A DNA stretch of 64,000 nt. It comes from Pseudomonas sp. G2-4 (GTDB taxonomy: Bacteria > Pseudomonadota > Gammaproteobacteria > Pseudomonadales > Pseudomonadaceae). The notes beneath the pieces were generated by a model that saw only the letters and a list, made by a program, of their open reading frames with translations, ran no database searches and was not told the origin of the DNA. The stretch lies in assembly GCF_030064125.1 (NCBI RefSeq), contig NZ_CP125957.1, positions 3,286,001 through 3,350,000 of the forward strand, given 5' to 3'. Of this stretch, positions 15,857 to 52,957 are shown one piece after another; position 1 is the first letter of the stretch, and each line of letters begins with the position of its first letter. Both the position numbers and the translations under genes were made by a program.

Positions 15857-16255
15857 TTACTTTGATTCCGAATCCGTCGAACTAACGTACCACCACCGTG
15901 GCTTTCTGTCCTCGTACGAGTGATACAACGGTAAGAGAGCTTCTAGATCATTGTCGTCAAAACCACCGACTAGCAATGCGATAGTTGGTTCGTCATCTAT
16001 TGCACCGACGGAGCTTCCGCACTTTGGACAAAAAGCTCTACTGGAGTAATCCGAGGATCTAAACGCTGAGGGAGCACCACCGGCACCTATCCACTTAACT
16101 CTGTCTCGCGCAAACTCGACCCACACGGCAGTAAGAGAGCCAGTATGCTGCTGGCAAGTTTTGCATGAGCACGTATGTGGTTTCTCTGCTGGGCCTAGCG
16201 CTTCATATCGAACCCACCCGCAGACGCATCCGCCACTATAGGTTGTTTTTTCCAT
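15857..16255 (-). CDS. GFA family protein (glutathione-dependent formaldehyde-activating fold)
   Basis: This 132-residue protein has the GFA zinc-binding layout. YSGGCVCGWVRYEA supplies the first Cys pair, HTCSCKTCQQHTGS the CxCxxC cluster, and AFCPKCGSSVG the C-terminal CxxC pair. Some family members bind glutathione and speed formaldehyde conjugation; most have no tested function. The gene is isolated, next to the decayed IS66 copy, with ATG at 16255. No partner gene is apparent. Confidence 0.85.
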   Translation of the reverse strand: MEKTTYSGGCVCGWVRYEALGPAEKPHTCSCKTCQQHTGSLTAVWVEFARDRVKWIGAGGAPSAFRSSDYSSRAFCPKCGSSVGAIDDEPTIALLVGGFDDNDLEALLPLYHSYEDRKPRWWYVSSTDSESK

Positions 16256-16432
16256 GTACTACTCCGTTAACCTGTGGTCATAGGGTCAAGCTTAGCGGTA
16301 GGCTATCGAACCTGTCTCGACGAGCAATCAATAGATACATATTTTCTAAACCTCTAAATTTTTCTGCCCTAATTTTCAGGGTTACGATATGTGCCGGACG
16401 CACAGCATAAAAATCGTGATCCATAAGGTGTA

Positions 16433-16660
16433 TTGAGCGGACGCTTACAGCTCGCTGACAAGATATGGGATGAAACATCTTCCTTTTTCGCCTTGCAGGG
16501 AACGGGAACGGCGCAAAGTATCTGCGATGTGCTCTATCTTGAAACGGATTTTCTTGAATCTCGCGATCTGATGCTTGTGATCGATTTAGATAGAAACGAG
16601 AAGGCTTTTCGTGGCCCTAATGAATACCCACATACCTTAGAGGCATGCTTGGGGTTTTAA
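16433..16660 (+). CDS. Hypothetical small protein (75 aa), doubtful
   Basis: A TTG-started frame preceded by AAGG. It reads MSGRLQLADKIWDETSSFFA at the start and ends PNEYPHTLEACLGF. The composition is protein-like (mixed charged and hydrophobic, few rare residues), but I recognise no family. It could be the remnant of a longer accessory gene. It converges on the 55-residue frame at 16670. Confidence 0.3.
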   Translation: MSGRLQLADKIWDETSSFFALQGTGTAQSICDVLYLETDFLESRDLMLVIDLDRNEKAFRGPNEYPHTLEACLGF

Positions 16661-16669
16661 CTTGCGAGA

Positions 16670-16837
16670 TTATGCCTCGAGTTCAAGCACTCTTTCTTCG
16701 TACCGCTTGAGGCTGGCCTCGCATTCGGTCGTCCTCTCGAGGCGAGCTAGGGCTTGTGCATGCATGGTCCTTGCATCTACCAGCTTCGCTTCTTGCGCAA
16801 TGACTAACTCTAAAGCCTGGCGGTATTCGCTCTTCAT
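16670..16837 (-). CDS. Hypothetical 55-aa coiled-coil protein
   Basis: On the minus strand, ATG at 16837 with GGAG 6 bases upstream opens a 55-codon frame to TAA at 16670. The protein starts MKSEYRQALELVIAQEAKLV, continues HAQALARLERT and ends KRYEERVLELEA, an almost uninterrupted amphipathic helix with heptad-like spacing. The good ribosome site and helical composition support a real small gene. Its role is unknown. Confidence 0.5.
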   Translation of the reverse strand: MKSEYRQALELVIAQEAKLVDARTMHAQALARLERTTECEASLKRYEERVLELEA

Positions 16838-17102
16838 GCTCGACTCCAAGCTTGCAGGTTTGAATCAGCTCCAGCAGCACTCCAAGCTCGGAGCAATGGG
16901 TGTGGGGGGAGCCGAAACCAAAAGGCCTCGATCAATGTCGGGGCCCTGAATTAGGTGAGCAGTCTTTCCCCCTGTCTGCCGAAGGCCTTAACGACGCCGA
17001 CGCCCCGATGCATCAGTCTCGCCGATCCAATCTCGCGCCCCCCCCGCAAGCATGTGAGGTCCGGGGGCACGGGCTGCCGGTGTTGTTTACGCACGTCGCT
17101 TA

Positions 17103-17387
17103 TTAGGACTGCCCTTTGATTTTGGCATTTGCTTCATCAATATAATCGTGACCTGCCCAAGTCAGTTGAACAACCAGTTCAAGCATATTCGTCGCCTTGA
17201 CTGCTTTTAGGAAACCCGCGTCAATGGCTAGAGACAGCGTATATCGGGCCTCTTGTTGGGTAACGCCATGTCCACCATCTGTATCGACAAACCTTTGCAC
17301 AAGGCGTTCCTTGGTGATGCCGTCTAGGCTGGCTTCAGCCTGTACTAAATCAAGTAAATGCTTGACGTACTTCTGATCTCTCTTCAT
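17103..17387 (-). CDS. DUF2513 family protein
   Basis: A 94-residue protein. It starts MKRDQKYVKHLLDLVQAE, and the C-terminal part contains VQLTWAGHDYIDEA, which matches the LTWAGHDFLDA hallmark of DUF2513. The fold is predicted to be a small winged-helix-like domain. Family members are common in prophages and islands and have no established function. The gene stands alone, with a minus-strand terminator-like hairpin (17557-17580) upstream of it. Confidence 0.75.
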   Translation of the reverse strand: MKRDQKYVKHLLDLVQAEASLDGITKERLVQRFVDTDGGHGVTQQEARYTLSLAIDAGFLKAVKATNMLELVVQLTWAGHDYIDEANAKIKGQS

Positions 17388-17556
17388 GAGGGCAACCTCA
17401 TCGACGCGCGCGAATTACGCACCAGCAGTGTATCAATCATTCGAGTACATATACCGACAAACCGACATAACGACGCTCAATGTCTTCAGCGATGCTCATC
17501 AGCTAATTCCTCGAAAAAATGGAATACGGCAGATAGCCTCTAGAGCGAAACAAAAA

Positions 17557-17580
17557 AAGCCCGACACAGTGGCCGGGCTT
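17557..17580 (-). terminator. Rho-independent terminator (minus strand)
   Basis: AAGCCCG and CGGGCTT form a 7-bp stem around a 10-base loop. Read on the minus strand it is followed by a run of T (the A run at 17549-17556). It would stop minus-strand transcription coming from the right. No convincing minus-strand gene lies just to its right, so it may be a leftover of a deleted gene. Confidence 0.6.
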
Positions 17581-17616
17581 GATATCCAATCCCGATACAC
17601 GGAGGAATGACAGGAT

Positions 17617-17913
17617 GTGTGGAAAATGGCTCACTGGTTCAATCTAAGTCAAGCGGCTTTTTTCTCAATGAGCCCCTCCGCGTGGCTGGAGTTTCTGCTG
17701 CGTTTACGCACCACTCACATGACCATTGGAAAAATGCAAACATTCGCCAAGCTGCGCAGCGCTGGGGATTCAACGGTTGCCGAACGCCGCCAGATGCTGG
17801 AAAGCCATTTACAGGACGTACAGGTCGAAGTTGTTGATATGCAAAAGGCCATTGCTGCACTGCAAGTCAAAATTGACTACTATCGTGTGCTTGAGGCTAA
17901 GAAGGATGTTTAG
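17617..17913 (+). pseudogene. MerR-family regulator, C-terminal remnant
   Basis: From about residue 20 the frame reads WLEFLLRLRTTHMTIGKMQ, then AKLRSAGDSTVAERRQMLE and a coiled coil ending KIDYYRVLEAKKDV. This matches the effector-side half and dimerisation helix of MerR regulators of the type with LRTTGM and R..LL..H motifs. The DNA-binding winged helix that should precede it is absent; the first 20 residues are unrelated. The most likely reading is a 5'-truncated gene. Confidence 0.6.
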
Positions 17914-18127
17914 CACCTGCTCAAAGGGCTCACCGTAATGCAGCCCGTTCATGCCGAAGGCTGATGGCTTGGATCGCATGCTGGCTGACGGCGGCATGAC
18001 CATGACGATGTCCACAGTTGGCCGACTTCTGCCACTCGATCTCTGCTAACAATCACCCGCCCCACCGGCCTTTGGTTTCCGCCCTTCCCGCTGCTACGCT
18101 TCCAACTCTTCGATTGGAGTTGAAACA

Positions 18128-18340
18128 ATGCCCACCGAATATTCGCTTTCTGATGTTCTTGAGCGGCTGTATCAAAATCAGCTCGCCCTGGAGGCCGCAG
18201 TAATGGAGCTGACCTTGAAGGTAGAAAACCAAGGTGCAACAAATATTGGCGCCAACGTCCGAGGTGCACTTCACACGATCGGAGAGAACGCCGGACACAT
18301 CAAACAGGGCTTGGCTAAGCTGAGAGCCCAGGGTCACTGA
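18128..18340 (+). CDS. Hypothetical 70-aa helical protein (cassette copy A)
   Basis: Starts MPTEYSLSDVLERLYQNQLA and ends KQGLAKLRAQGH. It is predicted all-helical. GGAG lies 8 bases before the ATG. The second copy at 40529 differs at only a few residues, and most DNA changes are silent, so the protein has been under selection. I recognise no family. It is convergent with the minus-strand RES operon, so it could be a separate gene carried along or a convergent regulator of the module. Confidence 0.65.
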   Translation: MPTEYSLSDVLERLYQNQLALEAAVMELTLKVENQGATNIGANVRGALHTIGENAGHIKQGLAKLRAQGH

Positions 18341-18471
18341 TTAGCGGACCCAACGAGCCGGCGAGCTTGGCGGTTATCCTGCACAGCATAAAGGCTGGAC
18401 TCGCCGAAGTGTCAGACTTCCCGCGCGTTGCGCGGCGACATCGTTAAGATACGGGCGCTCTCAACCTTTCG

Positions 18472-18720
18472 TTATGAGAAGCGGCGCACCTTGAGAATCT
18501 TGCCCGAAGCTACCTTGTGCTTGGGCTTGGCCACTCGAATAACCTTGTGCTGACCATCGCCTACTGTCTCAACGAGCATGCCATCACGGACCTCCATCAC
18601 ACTGAGTCCGGCCGCCAGCGTATTGATATAAGCCGCATGAATTGCGCCCTTCGCCATGGCTGGAATTTTATCTTCCAGCCGGCTCACCAGTTCATCATTC
18701 AACGGTTAGTTGGCGATCAT
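18472..18720 (-). pseudogene. Cassette orf4, copy A, nonsense at codon 5
   Basis: Comparison with copy B shows an 82-residue frame starting at ATG 18720 behind GGAG. In copy A codon 5 is TAA (18706-18708). A TTG at 18702 could restart translation and give a 76-residue product, MNDELVSRLEDKIPAMAKG onwards, ending KHKVASGKILKVRRFS. The protein is basic at its C terminus. No family is recognised. It is the last gene downstream of the RES toxin. Confidence 0.6.
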
Positions 18721-18920
18721 AACGAGCTCCGCATCCAAGGCCAGCACGGAGCCAGCCATCGTGTTACTGCTGCGATCTGGGACAAGCACCGTTCGCTCCT
18801 GGGGATGCACACGAGACCTGTTGATCGTCGATGCTTCATCAGGCCCGTACGAAAACTACCGCCAATGCCCTTTAAAAGCCCGCCGACATCAGCGTTGATC
18901 TTGAGACTGGGGAATGGCAA
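18717..18920 (-). pseudogene. Cassette orf3, copy A, frameshifted
   Basis: The N terminus (TTG start, PFPSLKINADVGGLLKGIGG) matches orf3 of copy B (41136-41324). After RTGL, small insertions and deletions shift the frame, so the C-terminal half is unrelated to copy B and runs into orf4. Copy B keeps a continuous 62-residue frame, so copy A is the damaged one. Confidence 0.55.
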
Positions 18921-18969: not shown

Positions 18970-19677
18970 TCAGCTTTTTCCCGCGATGATAACGACCCCA
19001 ATCCGCTCTGCCAGATTGAGCACCGTGTCGAACACAGTCGAGTCGCCGGTCAAGCTGCGTGAAGCCCCCTGCGGATGAAGTGCGCCGTCAGGAATCCGGT
19101 CACCGAAGAGCACCACCGCACGTGCCGAATCATCTTGTCGCGACACCCAAGACAGCCCTTGGGCATCTAGACACTGACGGTGGATTGCCTCTGCCCATTT
19201 GCGCGTCGCTGGATATTGATCTTTCTCAGTGTCGATCAGTTGTTTGCGCGTGATGCCCAGTTTCCGCAGGGGCACGCTGGACAGATCAACCAGGTGCAGC
19301 GGTTGGCTAACCTGGACGGCAGAATGCACCTGTCCAGTCAGCTTGCCTTTGTCGAAGCTCTTGAACCCAGCCGTATGGGGAACGTCGTGGAAAACGGTCT
19401 CCATCAAGGCGCAGTCGACTGTCGTGCCGCCATACAAGGTGGGAATCGCCCGCCCCTGATCATTCTGGATCGGGCTGAAGCGCGCGTTGCCGTGCACACC
19501 GGGATTGAATTGATCTGGCTGATATTTATCCTGATGCACACGATGGAGCACCTCGCCTTTGGCAATCACGGTGAAAGTGACGTGCAACGTAGCCGCAGGC
19601 ACCGGGGTGACGGACGCCGTCAAATCGGTAGCCGGTGTCGCCGTGCCCTTGCTGGACTCGTTACGCTGCTTAGCCAT
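18970..19677 (-). CDS. RES-domain NAD+ phosphorylase toxin (copy A)
   Basis: The 235-residue protein has a disordered N terminus of about 30 residues and then a RES domain: VLHRVHQDKYQP (conserved Arg46), NARFSPI (R66), YGGTTVDCALMETVFHD (conserved Glu93) and a C-terminal serine-bearing SRSLTGDS. RES toxins of RES-Xre modules degrade NAD+ and stop growth until neutralised. ATG 19677 overlaps the antitoxin stop by 8 bases, so the two genes are coupled. The upstream order antitoxin then toxin is the usual one. Key residues are present, so the toxin is probably functional. Confidence 0.88.
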   Translation of the reverse strand: MAKQRNESSKGTATPATDLTASVTPVPAATLHVTFTVIAKGEVLHRVHQDKYQPDQFNPGVHGNARFSPIQNDQGRAIPTLYGGTTVDCALMETVFHDVPHTAGFKSFDKGKLTGQVHSAVQVSQPLHLVDLSSVPLRKLGITRKQLIDTEKDQYPATRKWAEAIHRQCLDAQGLSWVSRQDDSARAVVLFGDRIPDGALHPQGASRSLTGDSTVFDTVLNLAERIGVVIIAGKS

Positions 19678-20341
19678 GGGCAATGCCTTGGATTTCGTCC
19701 AGTGCGGCAGCAATGACTTTATCAGGCGCCGATGCCAACAGATCCTGGGGCCTTTTGCCGCCCAGAAAACTGTTATCTGACCGGAACCAGTAAGCCATCC
19801 CCCAGCCGTCCTTGTGGCCAGCGAAAGCCTCAATAACTTTGGCGAGTGCCTTGAACGGCCGATAGCCCGCGTCCGGGTCCAAGCCATAACCTGGAAAATA
19901 GTCGACCCCACCGTGGCTGATGGCAAAGATCTGCCCCTGCTTTTTCCATTTGTTGGGCTGGGCACTCGGGTTTCGAGTACTCAACTGGGCCACCTGGGCG
20001 ATGTCTGCGGCGGTCAGCCAATCACCGCTTTCCAACACCGCTTTGCGGGCTTGGACCAGCATTGCTGCTTCCTTAAGCAGGCGAGGCGAAGGTGGCTTAC
20101 GCGTCACAAACACCTCGGCCAGTCGCTCTAGCGACTTCGGGTCCTGACGCTCCCGCAGCACCTCATACATTGAGGAGGCCACATTGGCGAAGTTTTCCGC
20201 CAACGCCTCAAATACACTGAGGTTGACCTGATCGAAAGACACGACCAGGACTCGGTCCGCATGCGATCGGCTCAAGCTGGCCCGAGCCTCCTTAGGCGTA
20301 CCAACCAAGGTGGAGACGCCCGATTGCTCTGTAACGCTCAT
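19670..20341 (-). CDS. Antitoxin of RES module, MbcA/ParS/Xre-like C terminus (copy A)
   Basis: The 223-residue protein has an N-terminal helical region (residues 1-110), an HTH-like segment (DWLTAADIAQVAQLS) with GYGLDPDAGYRPF, and a C-terminal stretch, WFRSDNSFLGGKRPQDLLAS, that resembles the MbcA/ParS/Xre C-terminal domain (x-LGG-x-P-x-x-LL). That domain blocks the RES active site in known pairs. The protein is longer than the usual Xre antitoxin of about 150 residues. ATG 20341 has GGAG about 8 bases upstream. Such antitoxins normally repress their own promoter, here in 20342-20400, which is AT-rich. Confidence 0.8.
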   Translation of the reverse strand: MSVTEQSGVSTLVGTPKEARASLSRSHADRVLVVSFDQVNLSVFEALAENFANVASSMYEVLRERQDPKSLERLAEVFVTRKPPSPRLLKEAAMLVQARKAVLESGDWLTAADIAQVAQLSTRNPSAQPNKWKKQGQIFAISHGGVDYFPGYGLDPDAGYRPFKALAKVIEAFAGHKDGWGMAYWFRSDNSFLGGKRPQDLLASAPDKVIAAALDEIQGIAHG

Positions 20342-27544: not shown

Positions 27545-29077
27545 TCAGCTGGCAGGCATTTGCCAATTATGCGGCAGTAACTGAGCAATACCATTCGCCC
27601 GATGCGTTGGCAAACGTGTGAGCACGTCCTTCAAGTAGGCGTAAGGATCATGCCCGTTGAGCCGCGCCGACTGGATCAAACTCATGATCGCCACCGCGCG
27701 TTTTCCGCTACGTAACGAGCCAGCGAACAGCCAGTTCGAGCGCCCAAGAGCCCACGGCCGGATTTGATTCTCGCACCAGTTGTTATCGATGGGCACAGCA
27801 CCGTCATCGAGATAGCGCGTCAGCGCTATCCAGCGTTTGAGGCTGTAATCCAACGCCTTGGCGATGGCCGATCCCTCAGGTACAAGCTGCCTCTGGGCGA
27901 TCATCCAGATATGAAGTGCGTCGATGATCGGCGCTGCTTTTTCGTGCCGTATTCGCTGCCGGACACCCGGTTCCAGCTCGCGTGCCTCTCGTTCAACTTC
28001 ATACAAGGCCGCGATGTAGTGCAGCGCCTTTTCGGCGATCTGGCTCTTGTTGGTCGCGTGCAAGTCGAAAAACTTGCGGCGTGCATGGGCCATGCAGCCG
28101 ATCTCCGTGACGCCCAGTTCAAAGCCTGCTTTGTAGCCAGCGAAGTCATCGCAGACCAGCTTCCCGTTCCAGTGGCCGAGGAAGTTTCGAGCATGTTCGC
28201 CAGCACGGCTCGGGCTGAAGTCGTAAACGACCGCCGCCAGATCGGAGAACTGGCTGGTGGCATACGCCCAGACGTAAGCGCGATGAGTTTTCTTCGCGCC
28301 AGGCGTCAGCATTGGTACCGGGGTCTCGTCGGCGTGGACGACGCCTTGCGTCAGCACGGCTTCGCGCAGCGCATCAACCAGCGGCTGTAATTGCACGCCG
28401 CAGTTGCCCACCCACTGTGCCAAGGTCGAACGGGCGATGGGCAGCCCGGCGCGGCCAAAGATTTTCTCTTGGCGATACAGCGGCAGATGGTCGGCGAACT
28501 TGGCCACCATGATGTGGGCCAGCAGGCCCGCTGTCGGGATGCCTTTGTCGATGACGTGCGCCGGTACCGGCGCCTGTATCAATGTTTCGCACTGTTCGCA
28601 GGCCCACTTCCCACGGATGTGGCGCTCGACGGTGAACACGCCGGGCGTGTAGTCGAGCTTTTCGCTGGCATCTTCGCCGATGCGCTTGAGGGCGCAGCCG
28701 CACTGGCAGTGGCTGTTGTCCGGTTCGTGATGGATCAGCGTGCGAGGAAACTGCGGTGGCAGCTGCGTGCGCTTGGGTTGCAGGCGCACTTTGGCTTCGA
28801 CAGGTGCCGGTTGCAGCGCCTCAAGTTCGGCTTCGATAGCGGCGATATCCGTATCGATCAAGTCGTCGAGCAGGCTGGCTTGATCCGGGCTCAACTGCTC
28901 GCTGCGCTTGGCAAACTTGAAGCGCTTGAGCAGCGCGATCTCGTGGGCCAGTTTCTCGTTGACCGACTTGTGATGAGTGATTTGCTTGTCCATCGTCTCG
29001 ACGCGCTGGATCAACTGCGCCGCCAAGGCACGCAGTTCTTCAGGGTTTAATTGATCGAGATTCGGATGTGAAGTCAT
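27545..29077 (-). CDS. tnpC: IS66 family transposase TnpC
   Basis: A 510-residue transposase with N-terminal coiled coil, a zinc-binding region (CQCGCALKRIG and CEQCETLIQ), and the DDE core: VHADETPVPM, VCDDFAGYKAGF and IDNNWCENQIRPWALGRSNW. The C terminus has the usual YAYLKDVLTRLPTHRA. All expected catalytic residues are present, so it should be active. ATG at 29077. It lies 83 bp downstream of tnpB. Confidence 0.93.
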   Translation of the reverse strand: MTSHPNLDQLNPEELRALAAQLIQRVETMDKQITHHKSVNEKLAHEIALLKRFKFAKRSEQLSPDQASLLDDLIDTDIAAIEAELEALQPAPVEAKVRLQPKRTQLPPQFPRTLIHHEPDNSHCQCGCALKRIGEDASEKLDYTPGVFTVERHIRGKWACEQCETLIQAPVPAHVIDKGIPTAGLLAHIMVAKFADHLPLYRQEKIFGRAGLPIARSTLAQWVGNCGVQLQPLVDALREAVLTQGVVHADETPVPMLTPGAKKTHRAYVWAYATSQFSDLAAVVYDFSPSRAGEHARNFLGHWNGKLVCDDFAGYKAGFELGVTEIGCMAHARRKFFDLHATNKSQIAEKALHYIAALYEVEREARELEPGVRQRIRHEKAAPIIDALHIWMIAQRQLVPEGSAIAKALDYSLKRWIALTRYLDDGAVPIDNNWCENQIRPWALGRSNWLFAGSLRSGKRAVAIMSLIQSARLNGHDPYAYLKDVLTRLPTHRANGIAQLLPHNWQMPAS

Positions 29078-31129: not shown

Positions 31130-32224
31130 TCATGATCGGTTAGCATTATCTGAACTCGACAACGGATCATATGTGCCTATGGTTATACCTGCCTCTCTCA
31201 ATTTATCCAGCCATTCTGGAAATTTTTCAGCCCAAAAATCAATTATGCTCCAAGGGTGCCGTTTAATATACACCTCGCCCATCGAAGCGAGCAACACAGT
31301 ATCAAATCGCGTTATTTGACCTTGGCGATTACCCCAGACCACCCGGCAAGTGGCATCATCATCATATCCCTTGAGGCAGTCATCTAGCTGCTTAATGGTC
31401 GTAAAACCTAAGCGCTTTAAGTAGCCCGCACTTAGCTCGTAACTTGTCTTATTTTGTCTGGCGTCGCCGCCAAGCCTTTTATGTAGATATGCTTTTAGTG
31501 CGTCGGGTGTAATTTCAATGCCATCAAGCTGCCCAGCCTCTACAGAAGTTCTAGCTTCTACCCGAAGGGTTTGATCTTCCTCCTGTAAAGCTTGAAACTC
31601 CCGATCAGCAATCTCTAGCATCCCAGCAAGTGCTATAAATCTTCGTCGGATAGCGGCAGGGATGACAGACGCACTTTTATATTGAATATCATGCTCCATC
31701 TCTGCCCAAGCATGCTGAAGGATTGTTCTAATTTGAATTTCAAACGTCAAATCTGTAAAGCGTTTGTATTCAGGCAAGCCAATCCTGCTGAGTGGGAGCT
31801 TTACTAAAAAATGCACACTCTGGTATCCAAATTTTCCTTCATCAATGAGCTCTTCGGCTTTGTCAGATTTTTCAAGCACAAAAAATTCTGATTCAATGCA
31901 TTCGCAAACTTGTGCGACTACTCCAGGGAGGAAAGTAATTATACGAACAGCCGACAAGTCAGTGATTTGCTTTAATGGGGCGGAGTATTTCGGCTCTTGC
32001 GGATTGATTGGAGATGGTTTGGCAGCTTTATTGCCGAAGCTTTCAATCGTTTTAGCCCTCGCTTCAATGGAATGAATGGAAACTCCAGCAGCGCTCAGGG
32101 TGTCCTTGAGAACTCGTGTAATAGTCTCGGCGAGATCTTCGTAGAGACCTCTCACCTCCCGGTACAGTGACATTGCAGTATCTTTATGCTTATCAAAGTC
32201 GAACGTTTTTTCTTCCATGCTCAT
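31130..32224 (-). CDS. RelA/SpoT-type (p)ppGpp synthetase domain protein
   Basis: A 364-residue protein. The synthetase domain spans about residues 50-195: IEARAKTIESFGNKA (substrate-binding basic patch), ITDLSAVRIITF (equivalent of the D-x-x-G-x-R metal site, with Ala for Gly), FGYQSVHFLVKL (G-Y-x-S-x-H) and FEIQIRTILQHAWAEMEHDI (E-x-Q-x-R-T ... WA-x-x-x-H). No HD hydrolase domain is present, as in small alarmone synthetases and ToxSAS/CapRel toxins. The C-terminal 160 residues are an unassigned helical region that could serve as an in-cis regulator. It has no adjacent antitoxin gene, and its neighbours are accessory. Confidence 0.8.
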   Translation of the reverse strand: MSMEEKTFDFDKHKDTAMSLYREVRGLYEDLAETITRVLKDTLSAAGVSIHSIEARAKTIESFGNKAAKPSPINPQEPKYSAPLKQITDLSAVRIITFLPGVVAQVCECIESEFFVLEKSDKAEELIDEGKFGYQSVHFLVKLPLSRIGLPEYKRFTDLTFEIQIRTILQHAWAEMEHDIQYKSASVIPAAIRRRFIALAGMLEIADREFQALQEEDQTLRVEARTSVEAGQLDGIEITPDALKAYLHKRLGGDARQNKTSYELSAGYLKRLGFTTIKQLDDCLKGYDDDATCRVVWGNRQGQITRFDTVLLASMGEVYIKRHPWSIIDFWAEKFPEWLDKLREAGITIGTYDPLSSSDNANRS

Positions 32225-32826: not shown

Positions 32827-34452
32827 TTATTTGGATTGTGGGTGCAACGGTAGCGTGACGACAAACTTGCTGCCGAGCCCTAAGCCACCGCTGGACACGC
32901 TTACCGAGCCTCGGTGCCCCTCGACCAATTCGCGAACGACTGACAGCCCAACCCCCAGGCCTGTGCCGTTGAACCCAATGGCGTGGGCGTCCTGAACGAA
33001 GGGATCAAAAATAAAAGCCAGAACCTCAGCGCTAATACCTATACCGGTATCGGAAAAGGTCAAGGTGATGTCCTCGGTACCAGCACCGATAACTAGCTCG
33101 ATCGAACCATTATTGGGTGTGTACTTTGAGGCATTGCCAAGCAGGTTGCATAAAATTTGCGTCAATCTGAACTGATCGCCATTGATCATCAGCGGGCGAC
33201 TTGGCTGGCGCACTACAAATTGCTGAAAGCGTAGGTCGATCGCAGGACGACAAACAATGACGGCCTCATCGATGATCGTTGCTATGTCTACAGGCTGGAA
33301 GTTCAGTCTGAGCTTGCCTGTCTGTACCAGGGATACGTCCATCAGGTCGTCGACCAGCCGCACAATATGGCTTGTCTGACGCTCAATAATCCCCTGTATG
33401 CTCGCCAACCGTTCACGGGAGGAGTGCATCAGCATCCCCGCCACCAGGGTTAGCGGTGTCAGTGGGTTGCGCAACTCGTGCGCAACCATTGCCAGAATTT
33501 CTTTCTGCTTATCAAGGGCGTCCTCCGCAGCGACCTGGAGTTGTTGCGCGTTGAGTGCCGTTAATACCAACTGCTCGTTTGCCTCTCGCAATTGAGCACG
33601 CCGTCTTTCGTGTTCTCTAGGGGCTATGTAGTGGTGATCGCCCGGTTTTTTTTGTGCCTGGATAATTGGGAGGCTGGTAGGCAACGGTACTGGAGGCAAG
33701 TCGGTGCTGTGAAAGGCGACCCCTAGACCATGCCGTTTTGCCCGATACATCGCCGCGTCAGCGCAATCGATCAATGTGTGTGGGTCATCGCCATCTTTCG
33801 GGTAATAACTCACCCCGATGCTCGCTGCCAGTTGCAGAACCTGATTCCCGATAGGATGTGGCACTCCAAGCGCCTTGATAATTTTCTCGCAGATACCCAA
33901 TACATCGGCATGGCTGATAGTGCCTCCCAGCAAGATAATGAACTCGTCCCCACCGTATCGTCCAACCGTATCATTCTTGCGTACCGCGCCACTGAGTCGC
34001 AGTGCAGTTTCCTTGAGCACTTCATCGCCGACACTGTGCCCCAAGGTGTCGTTGATCAATTTGAAGTGATTTAAATCCAAAAAGAGTACCGCCAGACCCT
34101 CTCCCTCCAGCTTCGTATCTTCGATCGCCTGGGCTAACCGTCCGAGTAGCAATCTGCGATTGGGAAGCCCCGTCAATACATCGAGCTGCGCGGCGTGAGA
34201 AACCTCCACAAGCGCAGCGGCTGCCTGTTCAACGCCAATTTGGGCTTGGAGAAGCGCTAATACCAGTTGTTCATTGGCCTCGATTAACTGCTCGGACTGG
34301 TGGTTTTCCAGCACTTGGTACTGAGTGTTCAAGACTTTCTGCTCAAGAGCATCAAGCTTTAGGCGAGCCTCCTGAGTTTTCTGCACAACCTTAGTCAGCT
34401 CGATACTCGCAGCAGCGAGCACTTTTTTGTCGTTGTCCGCTTTGCGGTTCAC
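32827..34452 (-). CDS. GGDEF-histidine kinase fusion protein
   Basis: A 541-residue cytoplasmic protein: coiled coil (1-85), GGDEF domain (about 88-250; RYGGDEF with GGDEF at 167-171 and RKND I-site at 158-161), second coiled coil (275-315), HisKA (H325 in VAHELRNPL) and HATPase_c (N440, DTGIG 468-472, GTGLGVGL 497-504). Both catalytic sites look intact. GGDEF placed before a kinase core is unusual. The linker EANEQLVLALLQAQ (59-72) recurs as EANEQLVLTALNAQ (290-303) on the other side of the GGDEF domain. The start overlaps the KaiC stop by four bases, so it is co-translated. There are no membrane segments. Confidence 0.9.
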   Translation of the reverse strand: MNRKADNDKKVLAAASIELTKVVQKTQEARLKLDALEQKVLNTQYQVLENHQSEQLIEANEQLVLALLQAQIGVEQAAAALVEVSHAAQLDVLTGLPNRRLLLGRLAQAIEDTKLEGEGLAVLFLDLNHFKLINDTLGHSVGDEVLKETALRLSGAVRKNDTVGRYGGDEFIILLGGTISHADVLGICEKIIKALGVPHPIGNQVLQLAASIGVSYYPKDGDDPHTLIDCADAAMYRAKRHGLGVAFHSTDLPPVPLPTSLPIIQAQKKPGDHHYIAPREHERRRAQLREANEQLVLTALNAQQLQVAAEDALDKQKEILAMVAHELRNPLTPLTLVAGMLMHSSRERLASIQGIIERQTSHIVRLVDDLMDVSLVQTGKLRLNFQPVDIATIIDEAVIVCRPAIDLRFQQFVVRQPSRPLMINGDQFRLTQILCNLLGNASKYTPNNGSIELVIGAGTEDITLTFSDTGIGISAEVLAFIFDPFVQDAHAIGFNGTGLGVGLSVVRELVEGHRGSVSVSSGGLGLGSKFVVTLPLHPQSK

Positions 34453-35945
34453 GAAAGCGTCCCAAGTTCATCCGCCTCAGGCCGAGGCATCGATGTTTGA
34501 TTGTTCTTCTGGGTCGGGCGGCCCCCTAACAGACCTTCTCGGTCAACAAGCATTTCACCAATCTGCAGGCCGTTGTCGTCGATGTGATACTGGCGTAACT
34601 CATCGGAATGGGCGCTGGCGCGTACCTTTACCACAGCCATGATCCGCAGCAGGCGGCTCTGCACTTCAATGTAGCGCTGGACAATGATCGCGTCGGTGAG
34701 AAAAGCTGTGCCGTAAGGACTAAACCGAAGGTCGGTGTAGCGGTCTTCCAACTCAGAGGTCATCAAGACGCTGACCCCAGCAGCCGTCAGCGCGGTGACC
34801 ATGCGCGAGAGCGACTCGCGAAAGTCAGCGCGAAAGGTTGGCGCCAATGCCAGCTCAAAGCCCGACAGCGAATCAATTACCATGCGGGTGGCTTTTAAAC
34901 GGCCGATCTCGCCGAGCAACAAGTGGACGATTTCGTCGATGGACAGGTCCGGCGCGCGACTGTCCACCAGGCCAACCTGCCCGCTCTTGATCAACTCGGC
35001 CAACTTCGGGTTTTGCGAATAGTTGGGCCGTTGCTCGAACACCGCAATCACACCGGTTTCACCGTTGCGTGCGCCTTCGGCCAGGAAGGTCGCCGCCAAA
35101 ATGCTTTTGCCCGAGCCCGATGGCCCGGCCACCAGCAGCGAATACCCGCGAGGCAGGCCGCCGCCGAGCATCTCATCGAGTACCGGCACGCCCATTTTCA
35201 GGCGCCTGATCGGGAACGTCGACGGCGCTTCAACCGAACGATTGATAGCCGCCGGTGGGAACACCTTGATCCCCGAGGTCGCAATACGGAAGGTGTGCAG
35301 GCCCGGCAAGGTCGGCTGGCCGCGCATCTTCATTATTTCCATCTTGCGAACCATCGAATTGCGCTCGACGCTTTGGCGCAGCCATATCAGGCCGTCTGCC
35401 ACGGTAAAAATCGGATTGGTGTCGGTTTCGGTGAAGTATTCGCCGATCAGAAAGGTCGTCGCCTGCCACGTGGTCATCAACATACCCAGTTGCTGGATGA
35501 ACTGCGGCAGGTTGTTATTCGGGTTGTCTTGGGTCTGGCTGGCCAGAACCACGGAGCGGAACGAATCGACAAATACCAGCGATGGCGAATGCGCCTCGAC
35601 TTCGCTGACGATTCGTCGCAATACCTCGTCCAAGTCACCGGCCAGGGTGTCGTTGGACAGGTTGATATAGCGAATAGACTGGTTGATCGCTTCGTTGTCG
35701 AAAAAATCGAATTGTTGCTGATAGCGCAGCATCTTCAACGGCGGCTCACCGAGGACGGTAAAAAACAACGCCGGACGTTCAGGCGTAGCCAGGGCAAACA
35801 TCATCTGGTGCGCCAGGGTAGTTTTGCCACACCCTGGAGGGCCGGCGATCAAGTTGAACGAAAACTCCGGTAGGCCTCCGCCCAGGACCTCGTCCAGTCC
35901 TGGCACACCCGTGGACAAACGGTTGATAGCCACTTTGGTATTCAT
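34449..35945 (-). CDS. KaiC-like double RecA-domain ATPase
   Basis: A 498-residue protein with two tandem KaiC domains. Domain 1 has STGVPGLDEVLGGGLPEFS and Walker A GPPGCGKTT (35-43), with LVFVDSFRS as Walker B. Domain 2 has MGVPVLDEMLGGGLPRGYS, Walker A GPSGSGKS (274-281) and MVIDSLSG. Of the paired catalytic glutamates in KaiC (EE), one is kept in each domain (GEPP near 67, FEQRP near 304). At the place of the KaiC phosphorylation sites (Ser/Thr before ITD) the sequence is AFLTD, so clock-type autophosphorylation is unlikely. It is coupled by four-base overlaps to genes on both sides. Confidence 0.9.
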   Translation of the reverse strand: MNTKVAINRLSTGVPGLDEVLGGGLPEFSFNLIAGPPGCGKTTLAHQMMFALATPERPALFFTVLGEPPLKMLRYQQQFDFFDNEAINQSIRYINLSNDTLAGDLDEVLRRIVSEVEAHSPSLVFVDSFRSVVLASQTQDNPNNNLPQFIQQLGMLMTTWQATTFLIGEYFTETDTNPIFTVADGLIWLRQSVERNSMVRKMEIMKMRGQPTLPGLHTFRIATSGIKVFPPAAINRSVEAPSTFPIRRLKMGVPVLDEMLGGGLPRGYSLLVAGPSGSGKSILAATFLAEGARNGETGVIAVFEQRPNYSQNPKLAELIKSGQVGLVDSRAPDLSIDEIVHLLLGEIGRLKATRMVIDSLSGFELALAPTFRADFRESLSRMVTALTAAGVSVLMTSELEDRYTDLRFSPYGTAFLTDAIIVQRYIEVQSRLLRIMAVVKVRASAHSDELRQYHIDDNGLQIGEMLVDREGLLGGRPTQKNNQTSMPRPEADELGTLS

Positions 35946-36364
35946 GACGAGGTATCCTGCGCAGGGGTGTCGCTAAAAGAGTTGTCCCAAACGGGCTGCA
36001 ACAGACGTACGGATAGAGAAGATCCTATGAACGAGATCAGTAGCTCATTCAAAGTCTTCAGCAAGTCGTGACCATATGCTGTGGCTGTGTCGCTGGTTTG
36101 CTGCGCGAGCAGGAGTCTCAATCCAGAAAAGTCTGTATCGAGGCTGTCGTTGAGGCTGGAGAGACAAGTGTGACGTGAGGCGCAAATAAAGACGCTTCGC
36201 CTATAAAGCGCAAACACGCCTTCGTGCCCAATAATCGGCGCGAGAGTAGTATAAATATCCCTGAATGTTGCCACTACCGCATTAGCGATTTTTCCGGCGT
36301 TCGGAGTGTCACCGGCGCGTTTAGCCGTCGATGCCGAAATCCTGCGGCTATCATCCCTTTCCAT
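35942..36364 (-). CDS. Hypothetical protein, first gene of the KaiC operon
   Basis: A 140-residue, mostly helical protein starting MERDDSRRISASTAKRAGDT, with AVVATFRDIYTTLAPIIGHE and DLLKTLNELLISFIGSSLSV. Its stop overlaps the KaiC start (ATGA), so it is part of the same operon. I do not recognise the fold. The pattern GHEGVFALYRRS with two cysteines nearby could suit a small sensor or adaptor for the ATPase, but that is speculation. Confidence 0.7.
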   Translation of the reverse strand: MERDDSRRISASTAKRAGDTPNAGKIANAVVATFRDIYTTLAPIIGHEGVFALYRRSVFICASRHTCLSSLNDSLDTDFSGLRLLLAQQTSDTATAYGHDLLKTLNELLISFIGSSLSVRLLQPVWDNSFSDTPAQDTSS

Positions 36365-41373: not shown

Positions 41374-42081
41374 TCAGCTTTTCCCCGCGATGATAACGAC
41401 CCCAATCCGCTCTGCCAGATTGAGCACCGTGTCGAACACAGTCGAGTCACCGGTCAAGCTGCGTGACGCCCCCTGCGGATGGAGTGCGCCGCCAGGAATC
41501 CGGTCACCAAAGAGCACCACCGCACGTGCCGAATCATCTTGTCGCGACACCCAAGACAGCCCTTGGGCATCTGGACACTGACGGTGGATTGCCTCGGCCC
41601 ATTTGCGCGTCGCAGGATATTGATCTTTCTCAGTGTCGATCAATTGTTTGCGCGTGATGCCCAGTTTCCGCAGTGGCACGCTGGACAGATCAACCAGGTG
41701 CAGCGGTTGGCTAACCTGGACGGCAGAATGCACCTGTCCAGTCAGCTTGCCTTTGTCGAAGCTCTTAAACCCAGCCGTATGGGGAACGTCGTGGAAGACG
41801 GTCTCCATCAAGGCGCAATCGACTGTCGTGCCTCCATACAAGGTGGGAATCGCCCGCCCCTGATCATCCTGGATCGGGCTGAAGCGTGCGTTGCCGTGCA
41901 CACCAGGATTGAATTGATCAGGCTGATACTTATCCTGGTGCACACGGTGAAGCACATCGCCTTTGGCGATCACGGTGAAAGTGACGTGCAACGTAGCCGT
42001 AGGCATTGGGGTAACGGACGCCGCCAAATCCGTGGGAGGCGTCGCCCTACCCTCACTGAACTCGGTACGCTGCTTAGCCAT
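41374..42081 (-). CDS. RES-domain NAD+ phosphorylase toxin (copy B)
   Basis: 235 residues, closely similar to copy A: VLHRVHQDKYQPDQFNPGVH, RFSPIQDDQGRAIPTLYGGT and ALMETVFHDVPH keep the Arg and Glu of the RES active site, and SRSLTGDS the serine. Most changes lie in the disordered N terminus (FSEGRATPPTDLAASVT). ATG 42081 overlaps the antitoxin stop by 8 bases as in copy A. It appears functional. Confidence 0.88.
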   Translation of the reverse strand: MAKQRTEFSEGRATPPTDLAASVTPMPTATLHVTFTVIAKGDVLHRVHQDKYQPDQFNPGVHGNARFSPIQDDQGRAIPTLYGGTTVDCALMETVFHDVPHTAGFKSFDKGKLTGQVHSAVQVSQPLHLVDLSSVPLRKLGITRKQLIDTEKDQYPATRKWAEAIHRQCPDAQGLSWVSRQDDSARAVVLFGDRIPGGALHPQGASRSLTGDSTVFDTVLNLAERIGVVIIAGKS

Positions 42082-42745
42082 GGACAATGCCTTGGATTTC
42101 ATCCTGTGCCGCAGCAATCACCCGATCAGGCGCCGATGCCAACAGGTCCTGAGGTCTTTTGCCTCCCAGAAAACTATTATCGGACCGAAACCAGTAAGCC
42201 ATCCCCCAGCCGTCCTTGTGGCCAGCGAAAGCCTCAATGATTTTGGCCAGTGCCTTGAACGGCCGATAGCCCGCGTCCGGATCCAAGCCGTAACCAGGGA
42301 AATAGTCGACCCCACCGTGGCTGATGGCAAAGATTTGCCCCTGCTTTTTCCATTTGTTGGGCTGGGCACTCGGGTTGCGGGTACTCAACTGGGCCACCTG
42401 GGCGATGTCCGCGGCGCTCAGCCAGTCACCGCTTTCCAAGACTGCTTTGCGGGCTTGGACCAGCATTGCCGCTTCCTTGAGCAGGCGAGGCGAAGGCGGC
42501 TTACGTGTCACAAACACCTCGGCCAGTCGCTCGAGCGACTTAGGGTCCTGACGCTCCTGCAGCACCTCATACATCGAGGAGGCCACGTTGGCGAAGTTTT
42601 CCGCCAACGCCTCAAATACACTGAGGTTGACCTGATCGAAAGACACGACCAATACTCGGTCCGCATGCGAGCGGCTTAAGCTAGCCCGAGCCTCCTTAGG
42701 CGTACCGACCAAGGTGGAGACACCCGACTGCTCTGTAACGCTCAT
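42074..42745 (-). CDS. Antitoxin of RES module (copy B)
   Basis: 223 residues, almost identical to copy A (changes such as VLQERQD for VLRERQD and DWLSAADIAQ for DWLTAADIAQ). The C-terminal WFRSDNSFLGGKRPQDLLAS that fits the MbcA/ParS/Xre toxin-blocking domain is fully kept. Because both antitoxins and both toxins are so close, cross-neutralisation between modules is expected. GGAG precedes ATG 42745. Confidence 0.8.
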   Translation of the reverse strand: MSVTEQSGVSTLVGTPKEARASLSRSHADRVLVVSFDQVNLSVFEALAENFANVASSMYEVLQERQDPKSLERLAEVFVTRKPPSPRLLKEAAMLVQARKAVLESGDWLSAADIAQVAQLSTRNPSAQPNKWKKQGQIFAISHGGVDYFPGYGLDPDAGYRPFKALAKIIEAFAGHKDGWGMAYWFRSDNSFLGGKRPQDLLASAPDRVIAAAQDEIQGIVHG

Positions 42746-49676: not shown

Positions 49677-50519
49677 ATGCATGTGTTATCGGTGGTTTCC
49701 ACGAAAGGTGGAGTAGGCAAAACCACAGTAGCCGCCAATCTCGGTGGCCTGCTTGCGGATGCTGGTCTACGTGTCCTATTGCTCGATCTGGATAGCCAAC
49801 CCACCCTCTCCAGCTATTACGCCTTGAGCCAGAAAGCCGTTGCCGGGACGTACGAGCTCATTGCACTCAACTTAACAACGCCTGCACAGATTGTTTCCAG
49901 GACCGTGATTGCAGGGCTCGACCTCATCATCTCCAACGACGCTCAAGGCCAGTTGAGTACATTACTGCTGCACGCCCCTGACGGGCGATTACGGCTGCGC
50001 AATTTACTCGACGATTTCCGCCCCCGTTACGACCTGCTTTTGATCGACACCCAAGGTGCACGTAGCGTGCTGCTGGAGATGGCCATCCTCGCCTGCGATA
50101 TCGCCCTCTCTCCCATCACACCGGAAATGCTAGCCGCCCGCGAACTGCGCCGCGGCACTTTGAGGCTGTTCAGTGAACTCGAACCATTTCATCGCGTGGG
50201 TATTACACCGCCACCGTTGCGACTGCTGCTGAACCAGGTAAATAGCATCCGAGTAGACACGCGGATGATCATCCGTGGCCTGCACGAGGCCTTCGCTGGA
50301 GCTCCCGACATATCGATTCTAGGCACCGTAGTTCCAGACCGAGTGGCTTACCTCAATGCCGCCTCCCTTGGGCTACCAGCCCACCGAATCGAGACTCGCC
50401 CGTCACGTGAACGACGCTCGCAATCAGCGCTGGAAACCATGCAAGCGCTGGCCATCGAGTTGTTTCCGGAATGGCGCGAAGCGATTTCGAGGGTAAGCAG
50501 ATACGCAGAGGTTCGATAA
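49677..50519 (+). CDS. parA: ICE ParA family partition ATPase
   Basis: 280 residues. HVLSVVSTKGGVGKTTVAAN gives the deviant Walker A (KGGVGKTT, residues 10-17), LLLDLDSQPTLS the Walker A' region and LLLIDTQGARS Walker B. The closest known homologues are the Soj-type ParA proteins of PFGI-1-class islands, which help maintain the excised element. The ATG follows alpA by 4 bp. The partner ParB is at 50829. Confidence 0.92.
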   Translation: MHVLSVVSTKGGVGKTTVAANLGGLLADAGLRVLLLDLDSQPTLSSYYALSQKAVAGTYELIALNLTTPAQIVSRTVIAGLDLIISNDAQGQLSTLLLHAPDGRLRLRNLLDDFRPRYDLLLIDTQGARSVLLEMAILACDIALSPITPEMLAARELRRGTLRLFSELEPFHRVGITPPPLRLLLNQVNSIRVDTRMIIRGLHEAFAGAPDISILGTVVPDRVAYLNAASLGLPAHRIETRPSRERRSQSALETMQALAIELFPEWREAISRVSRYAEVR

Positions 50520-50604
50520 GGCGAATTCCGGAGACGGTATCTCGCGCCAAATCATTTTGTTTGTTCAACCTTGAGGCCAACAGCGTTTGGCGAGGAGTCT
50601 TTTG

Positions 50605-50814
50605 ATGTTGGATCGGTTTCCCATCGTCGTTCAGCCGTCCATTCGACAAGATCACCTACCTAGCGAGGAATACTGGACCGTGGTCTTTCGCCTGCAGCGT
50701 GGGCGCTCGGCCATGGGTCGGTTTCTCGCGGAACTGTCTCGGTATTTCGAAGGTTCGGGAATAGCCGAGATCGTTAAATTCGAGGTCGGTGACCATTTGC
50801 GTAACCGGCGTTAA
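50605..50814 (+). CDS. Small ICE protein between parA and parB
   Basis: 69 residues from ATG 50605 (GGAG about 8 bases upstream): MLDRFPIVVQPSIRQDHLPS, then YWTVVFRLQRGRSAMGRFLA. Hydrophobic strands and a helix; no known motif. It is located in the par operon of the ICE and starts 85 bp after parA. It may help the partition complex, but I have no direct evidence. Confidence 0.6.
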   Translation: MLDRFPIVVQPSIRQDHLPSEEYWTVVFRLQRGRSAMGRFLAELSRYFEGSGIAEIVKFEVGDHLRNRR

Positions 50815-50828
50815 CTGAGGCTGTTCCG

Positions 50829-52412
50829 ATGAAGAAGCTCAGTCAGGAGGAGATCACCGACAAACTGTACCAGGACCATTTTCCTCGCGGTCCAGAACTG
50901 GAGCGACTATCCGATCCAGTCATCGACACCCCCATGCTGGTCACGCTGGAACAGTTGCGGCCCTACGAACACAACCCGCGCTTCATCCGTAACCCGCTTT
51001 ACGACGATATCAAAGCCTCTATCCGTGAACGTGGACTGGACCAGCCGCCACCTATTACCCGTCGCCCAGGAGAACCCCATTTCATCATCCGTAACGGCGG
51101 CAATACGCGATTGGCGATTCTCGGCGAGCTGTGGCAGGAAACCCGCGACGAGCGTTTCTTCCGCATCCATTGCCTGTTCCGGCCCTGGGGCAATGAAATT
51201 ATCACCCTGCTCGGCCATCTGGCCGAAAGCGATCTGCACGGCCAACTCACCTTCATCGAACGTGCTCTGGCGGTAGCCAAACTCAAGACCATGCTCGAAT
51301 CAGATGGAGCACCACTCTCGCAACGTGAGCTGGCACGACGTCTTGCCGCTGGCGGCTATCCGATTTCGCAGTCGCACATCAGCCGGATGCTCGACACCCT
51401 TGAATATTTACTGCCCGCCATTCCACAAACCCTATATGCAGGGTTGGGAAAACCAAAAATTGAACGCTTGATTGGTCTACGTAGCCAGGCTGAGCGAACC
51501 TGGAATCGTTATCCAACCGACGCCATCGCATTCTGCGAGTTTTGGCTCGACACCTTAGGGCAATTTGATGCCAACCCAGAGTCCTTCGACCTTGAGCAAA
51601 TCCAGGATGAACTGCTCGAACGCATGAGCAGCTTACTCGGACAGTCCTACCGCATGTTGGCCCTGGAGCTGGGCGATACCCAACGGGTCATCCGGACGCC
51701 CGGCATTGTCGTCACGCCCCCAGAGAACAACCCTCTGCCGAGCGTCGATGAACCCGCGGCCGAGCCTCCCCCTTCCGTGCTGCATTCCAAATCAGCTGAA
51801 ACCAAGACGCAGACCGAAACAGAGCGAGAGGAGCAGCTCACGCTGCCCGAAACGACCCTGGTAACAGCAGCCAGCCCTCCGTCACGTGTCCAGCAGATCC
51901 GCGAACGGATTGATCGCGCCACTGCCACCGAACCAGCACAGATCGTCGAAACCTGCCCGATCGACGACATCTGGATCATCGCACCAACATTGGATATCCC
52001 CGAACGACTGCGTTTAGCCATTGCCGGCCTGGCTCGGGAAATGGCGGCCTATGCCGGACATCCCGAGAGCATCATCGACCAGAAACATGGCCTGGGCTTC
52101 GCCCTGAACATCGAGCAACTTAATCTTGCTGCGCCTCGTGCGGCCGGCGTTCACCTATTGCTCTTGGCCCTGCTGCGTGCCCAAGACGAAGTGAACTGGG
52201 AGGATCGCAAGCAACTGCCCTCAGCCCTATTCGGGCAACTGCTATTGGGGGTCTATCAACTCCCGCTGACAGATCGTCCCGCCGTGGACGTAGGACTGGA
52301 GCGACTGCCCGACTATCTGTTAATCAAACTGTATCGCCTCATTCGCTTATCCCGGCGCCTGATCGACTTAACGCTTACCCATGAAGACGATTCACCAAGG
52401 GAGCTGCCATGA
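50829..52412 (+). CDS. parB: ParB family protein of PFGI-1-class ICE
   Basis: 527 residues. The ParB N-terminal nuclease-like fold shows LVTLEQLRPYEHNPRFIRNP, then DIKASIRERGLDQPPPITRR and HFIIRNGGNTRLAILGELWQ (GGNTR in place of the usual GERR box). Then comes an HTH (QRELARRLAAGGYPISQSHI). A low-complexity linker (about 285-350, Pro/Glu-rich) leads to a C-terminal domain. It overlaps the next gene by four bases. This is the ICE-type ParB (TIGR03764 group). Confidence 0.9.
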   Translation: MKKLSQEEITDKLYQDHFPRGPELERLSDPVIDTPMLVTLEQLRPYEHNPRFIRNPLYDDIKASIRERGLDQPPPITRRPGEPHFIIRNGGNTRLAILGELWQETRDERFFRIHCLFRPWGNEIITLLGHLAESDLHGQLTFIERALAVAKLKTMLESDGAPLSQRELARRLAAGGYPISQSHISRMLDTLEYLLPAIPQTLYAGLGKPKIERLIGLRSQAERTWNRYPTDAIAFCEFWLDTLGQFDANPESFDLEQIQDELLERMSSLLGQSYRMLALELGDTQRVIRTPGIVVTPPENNPLPSVDEPAAEPPPSVLHSKSAETKTQTETEREEQLTLPETTLVTAASPPSRVQQIRERIDRATATEPAQIVETCPIDDIWIIAPTLDIPERLRLAIAGLAREMAAYAGHPESIIDQKHGLGFALNIEQLNLAAPRAAGVHLLLLALLRAQDEVNWEDRKQLPSALFGQLLLGVYQLPLTDRPAVDVGLERLPDYLLIKLYRLIRLSRRLIDLTLTHEDDSPRELP

Positions 52413-52957
52413 ACCTGTCCTTCAATCTGCTCAACCAGGCCATGCTGACCCAGGTCCTTCACGAGTTGCGCCTGGGTAATCTGCAACGCTGCAAAGCACT
52501 CGGACTGGGTGAAGAGGACATCTACCTGCTGCAATCCTTACCTCCTACCACATTGTCACGCCTGGCTCATGCCACCGTTCCCTGGGTTGAGGTCAAGATT
52601 GACTCGCCGGTGCTGCATCGGTTGATCGACCAGTCCGAACGCGACGAACAGAACGAGCGCCTGATCAACCGAGCGCTCAAGCTCGGTGCCAGCAGTACCA
52701 TCATGTATCAGTGCTTCGGCTTGGCACATTCGGAAACCGCCTTGCGCCGACGGCTGCTCAAGATAGAAACCCGCAAGGGCCGCCCCCAGAACTTGAGCGA
52801 AGCGCAGGAACATGCGCTCTGGCAGCGTTGGTGCCAGCTACGCGCTCAGGACAGTGCTGAGGATCAGCTCGACGCCATGATGATGTTGGCGGAGGAGCAA
52901 CAGATCAGCTTGACCGTCGTTTGGCAGCAGATCGACCATTACAGCAACGGAACATGA
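52409..52957 (+). CDS. DUF2857 domain-containing protein
   Basis: 182 residues, helical. MNLSFNLLNQAMLTQVLHEL and HATVPWVEVKIDSPVLHRLI are the family pattern known from SPI-7/PFGI-type islands, where it always lies between parB and the STY4528 gene. KLGASSTIMYQCFGLAHSET looks like a helix-turn-helix. Overlaps: ATGA with parB and ATGA with the following gene. Function not established. Confidence 0.85.
   Translation: MNLSFNLLNQAMLTQVLHELRLGNLQRCKALGLGEEDIYLLQSLPPTTLSRLAHATVPWVEVKIDSPVLHRLIDQSERDEQNERLINRALKLGASSTIMYQCFGLAHSETALRRRLLKIETRKGRPQNLSEAQEHALWQRWCQLRAQDSAEDQLDAMMMLAEEQQISLTVVWQQIDHYSNGT

Follow-up and report, generated by a model that had tools for sequence, protein, structure and literature searches.

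Operons that join a KaiC-type ATPase with a histidine kinase have been on record since 2011, as have KaiC genes located close to GGDEF/EAL proteins (PMC3164672). The DNA analyzed here, a stretch of 64,000 nucleotides from Pseudomonas sp. G2-4 (contig NZ_CP125957.1, positions 3,286,001 to 3,350,000; called the window below), holds an operon of a related kind. It encodes a small protein that we call U140, a double-domain KaiC, and a histidine kinase that carries its own GGDEF domain. With moderate confidence we read this unit as a KaiC ATPase switch without phosphosites and with an exchangeable core, which would control cyclic diguanylate (c-di-GMP) synthesis and kinase output.

In the available sections of the 2011 study the 'dark-blue' operons, which lack kaiB, resemble the window operon in that KaiC is directly followed by a histidine kinase and in that the genome has no kaiB; co-transcription of such an operon was shown for Ramlibacter (PMC3164672). 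Their KaiC proteins have the phosphosite profiles SY, TY or SF whereas the window KaiC has A and F, and the same sections mention neither a partner like U140 nor a GGDEF domain in the kinase. A third, 'black' context of that paper is similar in its poorly conserved phosphosites (profiles including AF) and in its frequent location near a receiver, kinase or GGDEF/EAL protein, but there the gene order is heterogeneous, unlike the fixed U140-KaiC order of the subclade studied here. The cyanobacterial KaiABC clock with its SasA output also combines a double-domain KaiC with a histidine kinase. Compared to that system the window unit has no KaiB match, no phosphosites, one catalytic glutamate per domain, no KaiB Pfam domain in the kinase, and an extra diguanylate cyclase. 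The GGDEF domain is like that of the diguanylate cyclases TpbB and PleD, but here a HisKA-HATPase kinase forms part of the same protein, and its gene lies in an operon with KaiC. A further close system is formed by the KaiC-like proteins studied in environmental Pseudomonas (Terrettaz et al. 2023, doi 10.1111/1462-2920.16330), known to us via citing passages. No account of U140 or of a KaiC operon with a GGDEF-kinase fusion was found in the open-access literature searched; Terrettaz et al. 2023 lay outside this search and an earlier description is possible. New here are the unnamed partner family U140, the varying output domains, and a natural swap of the KaiC core.

Gene layout and domain content

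The three genes lie at 32827..36364, as a first-pass annotation of the window had proposed, on the minus strand of a genome assembled as a single contig of 6.65 Mb; the nearest matches in sequence comparison belong to Pseudomonas. Their order from 5' to 3' is U140, KaiC, kinase/cyclase, and neighbors share 4 nucleotides. The annotation had given ATGA for both overlaps, which holds for U140/KaiC but not for KaiC/kinase, where the overlap is GTGA because the start codon of the kinase is GTG. It was right in describing a 140-residue unknown protein, a double-domain KaiC with single catalytic glutamates and no clock phosphosites, and a GGDEF-HisKA-HATPase fusion, all three domains of which were found by Pfam. 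Its wording that the ATPase and c-di-GMP synthesis are joined in one polypeptide has to be corrected, since KaiC is encoded by a separate gene and it is GGDEF and kinase that share a polypeptide. The features are as follows.

35942..36364, minus: U140, 140 residues, all-helical, encoded by the first gene of the operon, family without a name (open reading frame; no Pfam match; structure model)
34449..35945, minus: double-domain KaiC-type ATPase, 498 residues (Pfam, NCBIfam, alignment)
34564..35928, minus: KaiC tract acquired by recombination from a kinase-only operon, given as the outermost runs of donor-type sites (site comparison, dS)
35940 and 34554, minus: points at which the native-type sites flanking the recombined tract end and resume, respectively (site comparison)
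34449..34556, minus: native-type C-terminal tail of KaiC (codons 464-498 plus stop), which stayed with the kinase (site comparison, dS)
32827..34452, minus: GGDEF-HisKA-HATPase_c protein, 541 residues (open reading frame, Pfam)
34240..34278, minus: linker motif copy 1, ANEQLVLALLQAQ, residues 59-71, before GGDEF (sequence)
33727..34191, minus: GGDEF domain, residues 88-242, with GGDEF motif, RxxD inhibitory site, metal and substrate residues intact (Pfam, alignment)
33544..33582, minus: linker motif copy 2, ANEQLVLTALNAQ, residues 291-303, between GGDEF and HisKA (sequence)
33322..33507, minus: HisKA domain, residues 316-377, with the phospho-acceptor histidine (Pfam, sequence)
32842..33180, minus: HATPase_c domain, residues 425-537 (Pfam, sequence)

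The window KaiC matches the KaiC family PF06745 in two stretches (218.3 bits). In an alignment of 85 sequences, the window included and one of them a duplicate, the Walker A lysine is invariant in both domains (85/85). Domain 1 has its single catalytic glutamate in G66-E67 (GE, 85/85) and domain 2 in E304-Q305 (EQ; E in 85/85, Q in 82/85), so that neither domain has the paired catalytic glutamates of cyanobacterial-type KaiC. In the phmmer alignment to solved KaiC chains, S431/T432 correspond to A414 (kept in 85/85) and F415 (84/85); clock phosphosites are not present. Scores against the NCBIfam models of clock KaiC stay far from the cut-offs (222.3 against 408 bits for PRK09302.1, 143.4 against 546.25 bits for TIGR02655). 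The search for KaiB gave no match in the window genome at E ≤ 0.001, and the control search responded in Synechococcus elongatus, which was among its 14 controls. A circadian clock was rejected as an explanation of the operon on the phosphosites (A/F) and the lack of a KaiB match in the genome; judged by its sequence, the unit is not a clock.

The output protein scores 163.7 bits for GGDEF and exceeds the Pfam cut-offs for HisKA (44.2 against 26.9 bits) and HATPase_c (85.7 against 26.4 bits). The acceptor histidine is part of AHELRNP (residues 324-330), and HATPase_c has the motifs of the N, G1 and G2 boxes. Residues 1-87, where an RtaNt (KaiB-like) N-terminal domain as in the 'dark-blue' group would lie, gave no Pfam match, and Pfam found no KaiB domain in the protein. 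Copies of the linker motif flank GGDEF on both sides. The GGDEF domain matches the solved chains of TpbB (E 1.6e-35) and PleD (E 2.2e-30). An alignment was made of 29 GGDEF domains encoded beside this KaiC, near-duplicates included (a separate gene in loci L066, L067, L160 and L161). The GGDEF motif is kept in 28 of them (L159 has SGDEF), and the RxxD motif (I-site), the metal-binding aspartate, the substrate-binding N/D and the lysine are each kept in all 29. An inactive GGDEF domain, which the first-pass annotation had considered, is not what we find: catalytic, metal and I-site residues are intact in the window protein, which looks catalytically competent as a diguanylate cyclase. Strong selection on GGDEF is indicated by its ratio of nonsynonymous (dN) to synonymous (dS) substitution rates, which five of six comparisons put at 0.12-0.18; the remaining one, L145b-L146 with four changes, gave 0.32. 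For HisKA-HATPase the ratio was 0.22-0.37, indicating moderate selection.

Recurrence of the gene order and variation of the output

Conservation of the trio was examined in the best 80 of 238 KaiC relatives from a genome contig scan, a sample biased to close KaiC relatives, with U140 called by blastp at E ≤ 0.001. U140 is encoded directly upstream of KaiC at all 80 loci, although the frame has only 69 residues in L076, and the two genes show the 4-nucleotide ATGA overlap at 75 (by the register of the script). A kinase and/or GGDEF partner follows KaiC at 75 of the 80. The three-gene order, for which the annotation had suggested a search, thus recurs more than expected by chance.

The partner is a kinase without GGDEF (short form) at 55 loci, a GGDEF-kinase (long form) at 17 and a GGDEF protein without intact kinase at 3; no intact partner was seen at 3 and the contig ended at 2. 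L074 and L097 were included in this tally although contig ends cut their partners. The long kinase of L088 is open and was found by tblastn. L066 and L067, counted as short forms, have a separate GGDEF gene downstream of the kinase; by eye they also carry a second KaiC type and a single receiver, which makes two KaiC systems within the cluster. What short forms retain are the stretches that match residues 1-76 and 280-536 of the window kinase. With a strict pattern the linker motif was found in two copies 33-34 residues apart in 37 of the 55, in one copy in 16 and not at all in 2; this pattern undercounts, since among the 17 long forms it gives two copies in just 1.

The form of the partner differs between lineages. 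In the Pseudomonas group (62 loci, including Stutzerimonas and one unclassified gammaproteobacterial assembly, L076) we found 55 short forms, 5 long forms and 2 loci with none. The 18 loci outside this group comprise 12 long forms, 3 with GGDEF only, 1 without intact partner and 2 contig ends; the one without intact partner is L094, which has a kinase remnant without GGDEF. Thus GGDEF occurs at 15 of the 15 outside loci with a recognizable partner and is missing from 55 of the 62 inside, and among the kept loci it is therefore the rule outside Pseudomonas. Pairing of KaiC with c-di-GMP synthesis, which the annotation called unusual, does not merit that description in this family. GGDEF without an intact kinase stands beside U140-KaiC in L102, L103, L106 and L159. 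Other outputs beside KaiC of this clade are HK-REC and GGDEF-EAL proteins as separate genes (L160), GGDEF-EAL (L161) and HK-REC (L167). The window genome itself has two further U140-KaiC-kinase operons, both kinase-only (copies B and C), and two distant KaiC types (28-29% identical) with no U140 beside them.

A quick KaiC tree, in which L066 and L067 carry the label of long forms and of which only the branch supports (Shimodaira-Hasegawa-like approximate likelihood ratio test, SH-aLRT) were used, contained a mainly short clade of 70 rows (support 94) and a Pseudomonas long clade of 8 rows (support 87). Since GGDEF-bearing lineages fall outside both, the simplest reading is that the short clade lost GGDEF at its base. 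The tree left out the duplicates L060, L148, L151 and L153, further L089, L104, L168, the two distant KaiC types of the window genome and the deleted KaiC of L145b and L146; the position of L167 (branch length 8.0) is unsure. Both operon types can be near each other: L145 (genome G062) has a kinase-only and a GGDEF-kinase operon in one 12-kb stretch (6751-9694 and 16185-18795) in opposite orientation, and two U140 genes are spaced by ~45 kb in G274 and ~79 kb in the window genome.

U140 gave no Pfam family at E ≤ 0.1 and no sequence match in the PDB, and its structural matches were weak only; a known fold was therefore rejected. The structure model has seven helices with a mean predicted local distance difference test (pLDDT) score of 87.8. 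Among 8000 candidates scored, 1515 were relatives at E ≤ 0.001. With U140 as query it was detected in 70 of 398 genomes of the genus, and with the U140 profile the class yielded matches in 5 of 274 genomes and the phylum in 4 of 398, the own genome being counted in each. KaiC is also present at 39 of the 40 loci returned by these searches, twice in deleted form, with some places counted twice. The only exception is a U140-like domain fused to GGDEF (L162, 1546-2640) with no KaiC in the stretch fetched; by eye, two Crp-like genes lie upstream of it. The family of U140, helical and without a name, is large and tied to this subclade of KaiC.

Origin of the KaiC core and genomic surroundings

The window KaiC has a different history from its partners. 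U140 and the kinase are 88-93% and 90-93% identical, respectively, to those of L079, L144, L145b and L146. KaiC shows 82-83% identity to the full-length proteins of L079 and L144, against 94% to that of the kinase-only operon L027, and in the tree it groups with L027, L028 and L029 (support 91; 96 for the six-row set). Diagnostic sites were defined as positions where L079 and L144 agree (long type) and differ from a state shared by L027 and L028 (short type). Upstream of KaiC the window is long-type at 170 of 173 such sites and short-type at none. In nucleotides 1-1420 of KaiC it is long-type at 33 and short-type at 208 of 258, in the remainder of KaiC the counts are 23 and 2 of 25, and at the start of the kinase 160 and 3 of 168. 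Runs of short-type sites span window positions 35928 to 34564.

Between the window and L144, dS is 0.05 in U140, 0.07-0.16 in the kinase parts and 0.20 in KaiC codons 464-498, and it is saturated in codons 3-463. Yet L144 and L079 differ in codons 3-463 by a dS of only 0.19, matching their other parts (0.08-0.19), from which it follows that the window is the recombinant. Its KaiC core (approximately codons 3-463) was swapped in from a kinase-only operon, and U140, the KaiC tail and the kinase are native. The dS to the window core is 0.54 for L027 and 0.82 and 0.97 for the own copies B and C; the donor is therefore not simply one of the copies now present in the genome.

No further gene is conserved beside the trio according to a clustering of neighbors at 84 loci (open reading frames of at least 100 residues within ~8 kb), the largest cluster being found at 15 of the 84 in scattered positions. 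In the window a RelA/SpoT-domain protein of 364 residues, possibly an alarmone enzyme, is encoded on the same strand ~0.6 kb downstream of the operon (31130-32224). Two IS66-family transposase genes are present (14406-15830 and 27545-29077), one of them a few kb from the operon. A plasmid origin was rejected after megablast gave 0 matches among 72,556 plasmid records. Core genes of a PFGI-1-type integrating conjugative element occur at 49677-60514 (TIGR03764 parB, the STY4528 and STY4534 families, TIGR03761, topoisomerase III and ssb, with a ParA-like ATPase that scores below its cut-off). Since these become recognizable only at ~49.7 kb, a distance of 13 kb from the operon, and the window showed no tRNA, the operon was not assigned to the element as cargo. 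A RES-domain protein with a 223-residue upstream partner, by eye a toxin-antitoxin-type module, is present in near-identical copies at 41374-42745 and 18970-20341 (93% and 97% protein identity). At 5370-10867 a REC-GGDEF protein overlaps by 1 base a CHASE-PAS hybrid kinase of 1516 residues with Hpt, and the two are likely a second c-di-GMP system of the window.

Proposed mechanism and alternatives

The reading that we favor describes a self-contained unit of a small helical partner (U140), a KaiC ATPase lacking phosphosites, and a predicted cyclase and kinase behind a repeated linker. U140 would help to set or read the ATP- or ADP-dependent state of a KaiC ring, which would reach the output protein by way of the native KaiC tail and the N-terminal linker. 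The output protein would then change its synthesis of c-di-GMP and, at the same time, its phosphotransfer to an unlinked response regulator. Our inference that KaiC feeds the kinase is based on gene order and co-inheritance. The reading is supported by the U140-KaiC order, the conservation of the partner, the presence of KaiC at 39 of the 40 loci found with U140, the intact GGDEF residues, purifying selection on GGDEF, the variation in output, the core swap, the missing phosphosites and KaiB match, the single glutamate per KaiC domain and the lack of any other conserved neighbor. A broader version is more tentative, and we would not yet rely on it: U140 may be a dedicated third component with a role like that of KaiA or KaiB, U140-KaiC a plug-in ATPase switch independent of phosphosites, and the output slot may take a cyclase, a kinase or both, with the KaiC core exchangeable and the tail and partners holding specificity.

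A number of observations weigh against the favored reading. Most Pseudomonas-group operons lack GGDEF, an intact kinase is missing next to U140-KaiC in L075, L078, L148 and L149, and no response regulator gene was found conserved beside the operon at the 84 loci. The arginine in the AKxxGRN motif of the GGDEF domain is mostly replaced among the 29 domains and is leucine in the window. Selection is weak on the first linker (dN/dS 0.26-1.20) and on U140 (0.21-0.70), which both evolve fast, and U140 is split into two frames beside an intact KaiC in G204. The recombined tract ends where DNA similarity also ends; the swap therefore only suggests a role of the tail, which these ends by themselves do not prove. 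In G062 and G274 the KaiC of the long-type operon is reduced to 189 residues with a changed Walker A by an internal deletion that leaves the frame open and the C-terminal tail in place (L145, 17807-18376; L146, 3579-4148). As the GGDEF-kinase operon persists in both genomes, KaiC in cis may be dispensable; since both also hold intact kinase-only copies, supply of KaiC from another operon is possible. Finally, a published survey considers it very unlikely that KaiC stimulates SasA homologues outside cyanobacteria, because the KaiB-like domain is missing from them (PMC5520375); the window kinase likewise gave no KaiB match in Pfam.

Some of these observations could also mean that the kinase is the real output, with KaiC mainly controlling phosphotransfer and GGDEF being a regulatory module (sensing GTP or c-di-GMP) or a passenger. 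The retention of the kinase in the 55 Pseudomonas-group loci without GGDEF fits this, and so does the 33-34 residue spacing of the linker copies in short forms, as if GGDEF were excised without loss of the unit. We nevertheless regard it as rather unlikely, because outside the Pseudomonas group it is GGDEF that is always retained where the partner is recognizable (apart from the remnant in L094) and the kinase that is lost or degenerate in three of these 15 loci and in L159. Moreover, the catalytic residues of GGDEF are intact, and when the four parts of the protein are compared, GGDEF has the lowest dN in five of six cases. It is still less probable that the operon in the window is redundant or a paralogue in decay, in which KaiC was replaced by chance, with the two kinase-only copies as the functional units. 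Such copies do exist in the genome, G062 and G274 bear the same long operon with deleted KaiC, and the window core derives from another operon. However, all three frames are open, the dN/dS of GGDEF, HisKA-HATPase and the KaiC core is 0.05-0.37 in comparisons with the window, and the recombinant core retains the conserved motifs of the family. A timer or hourglass, as proposed for the KaiC-kinase operon of Ramlibacter, is very improbable. KaiC-kinase operons without KaiB were put forward as possible hourglass timers in PMC3164672, but the proposal needs two phosphorylatable residues, and these positions are alanine in 85/85 and phenylalanine in 84/85 sequences here. The genome also has no KaiB match, and according to a passage of a Myxococcus paper, work on KaiC proteins of Pseudomonas yielded no evidence of a circadian function (PMC11832031).

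On the reading of the unit as an ATPase switch, its physiological role is likely in stress resistance or biofilm formation rather than in timekeeping. A c-di-GMP output would fit a link to biofilms; the cyanobacterial clock itself responds to c-di-GMP levels (PMC13001216). For the question of how KaiC functions outside cyanobacteria without KaiB or phosphosites, the unit is a compact, testable system. It offers an output enzyme for which two measurable activities are predicted, and variants missing either of them exist in nature. It further includes an unnamed partner, present next to KaiC at all 80 loci kept, and a natural core swap that separates the KaiC core from its tail.

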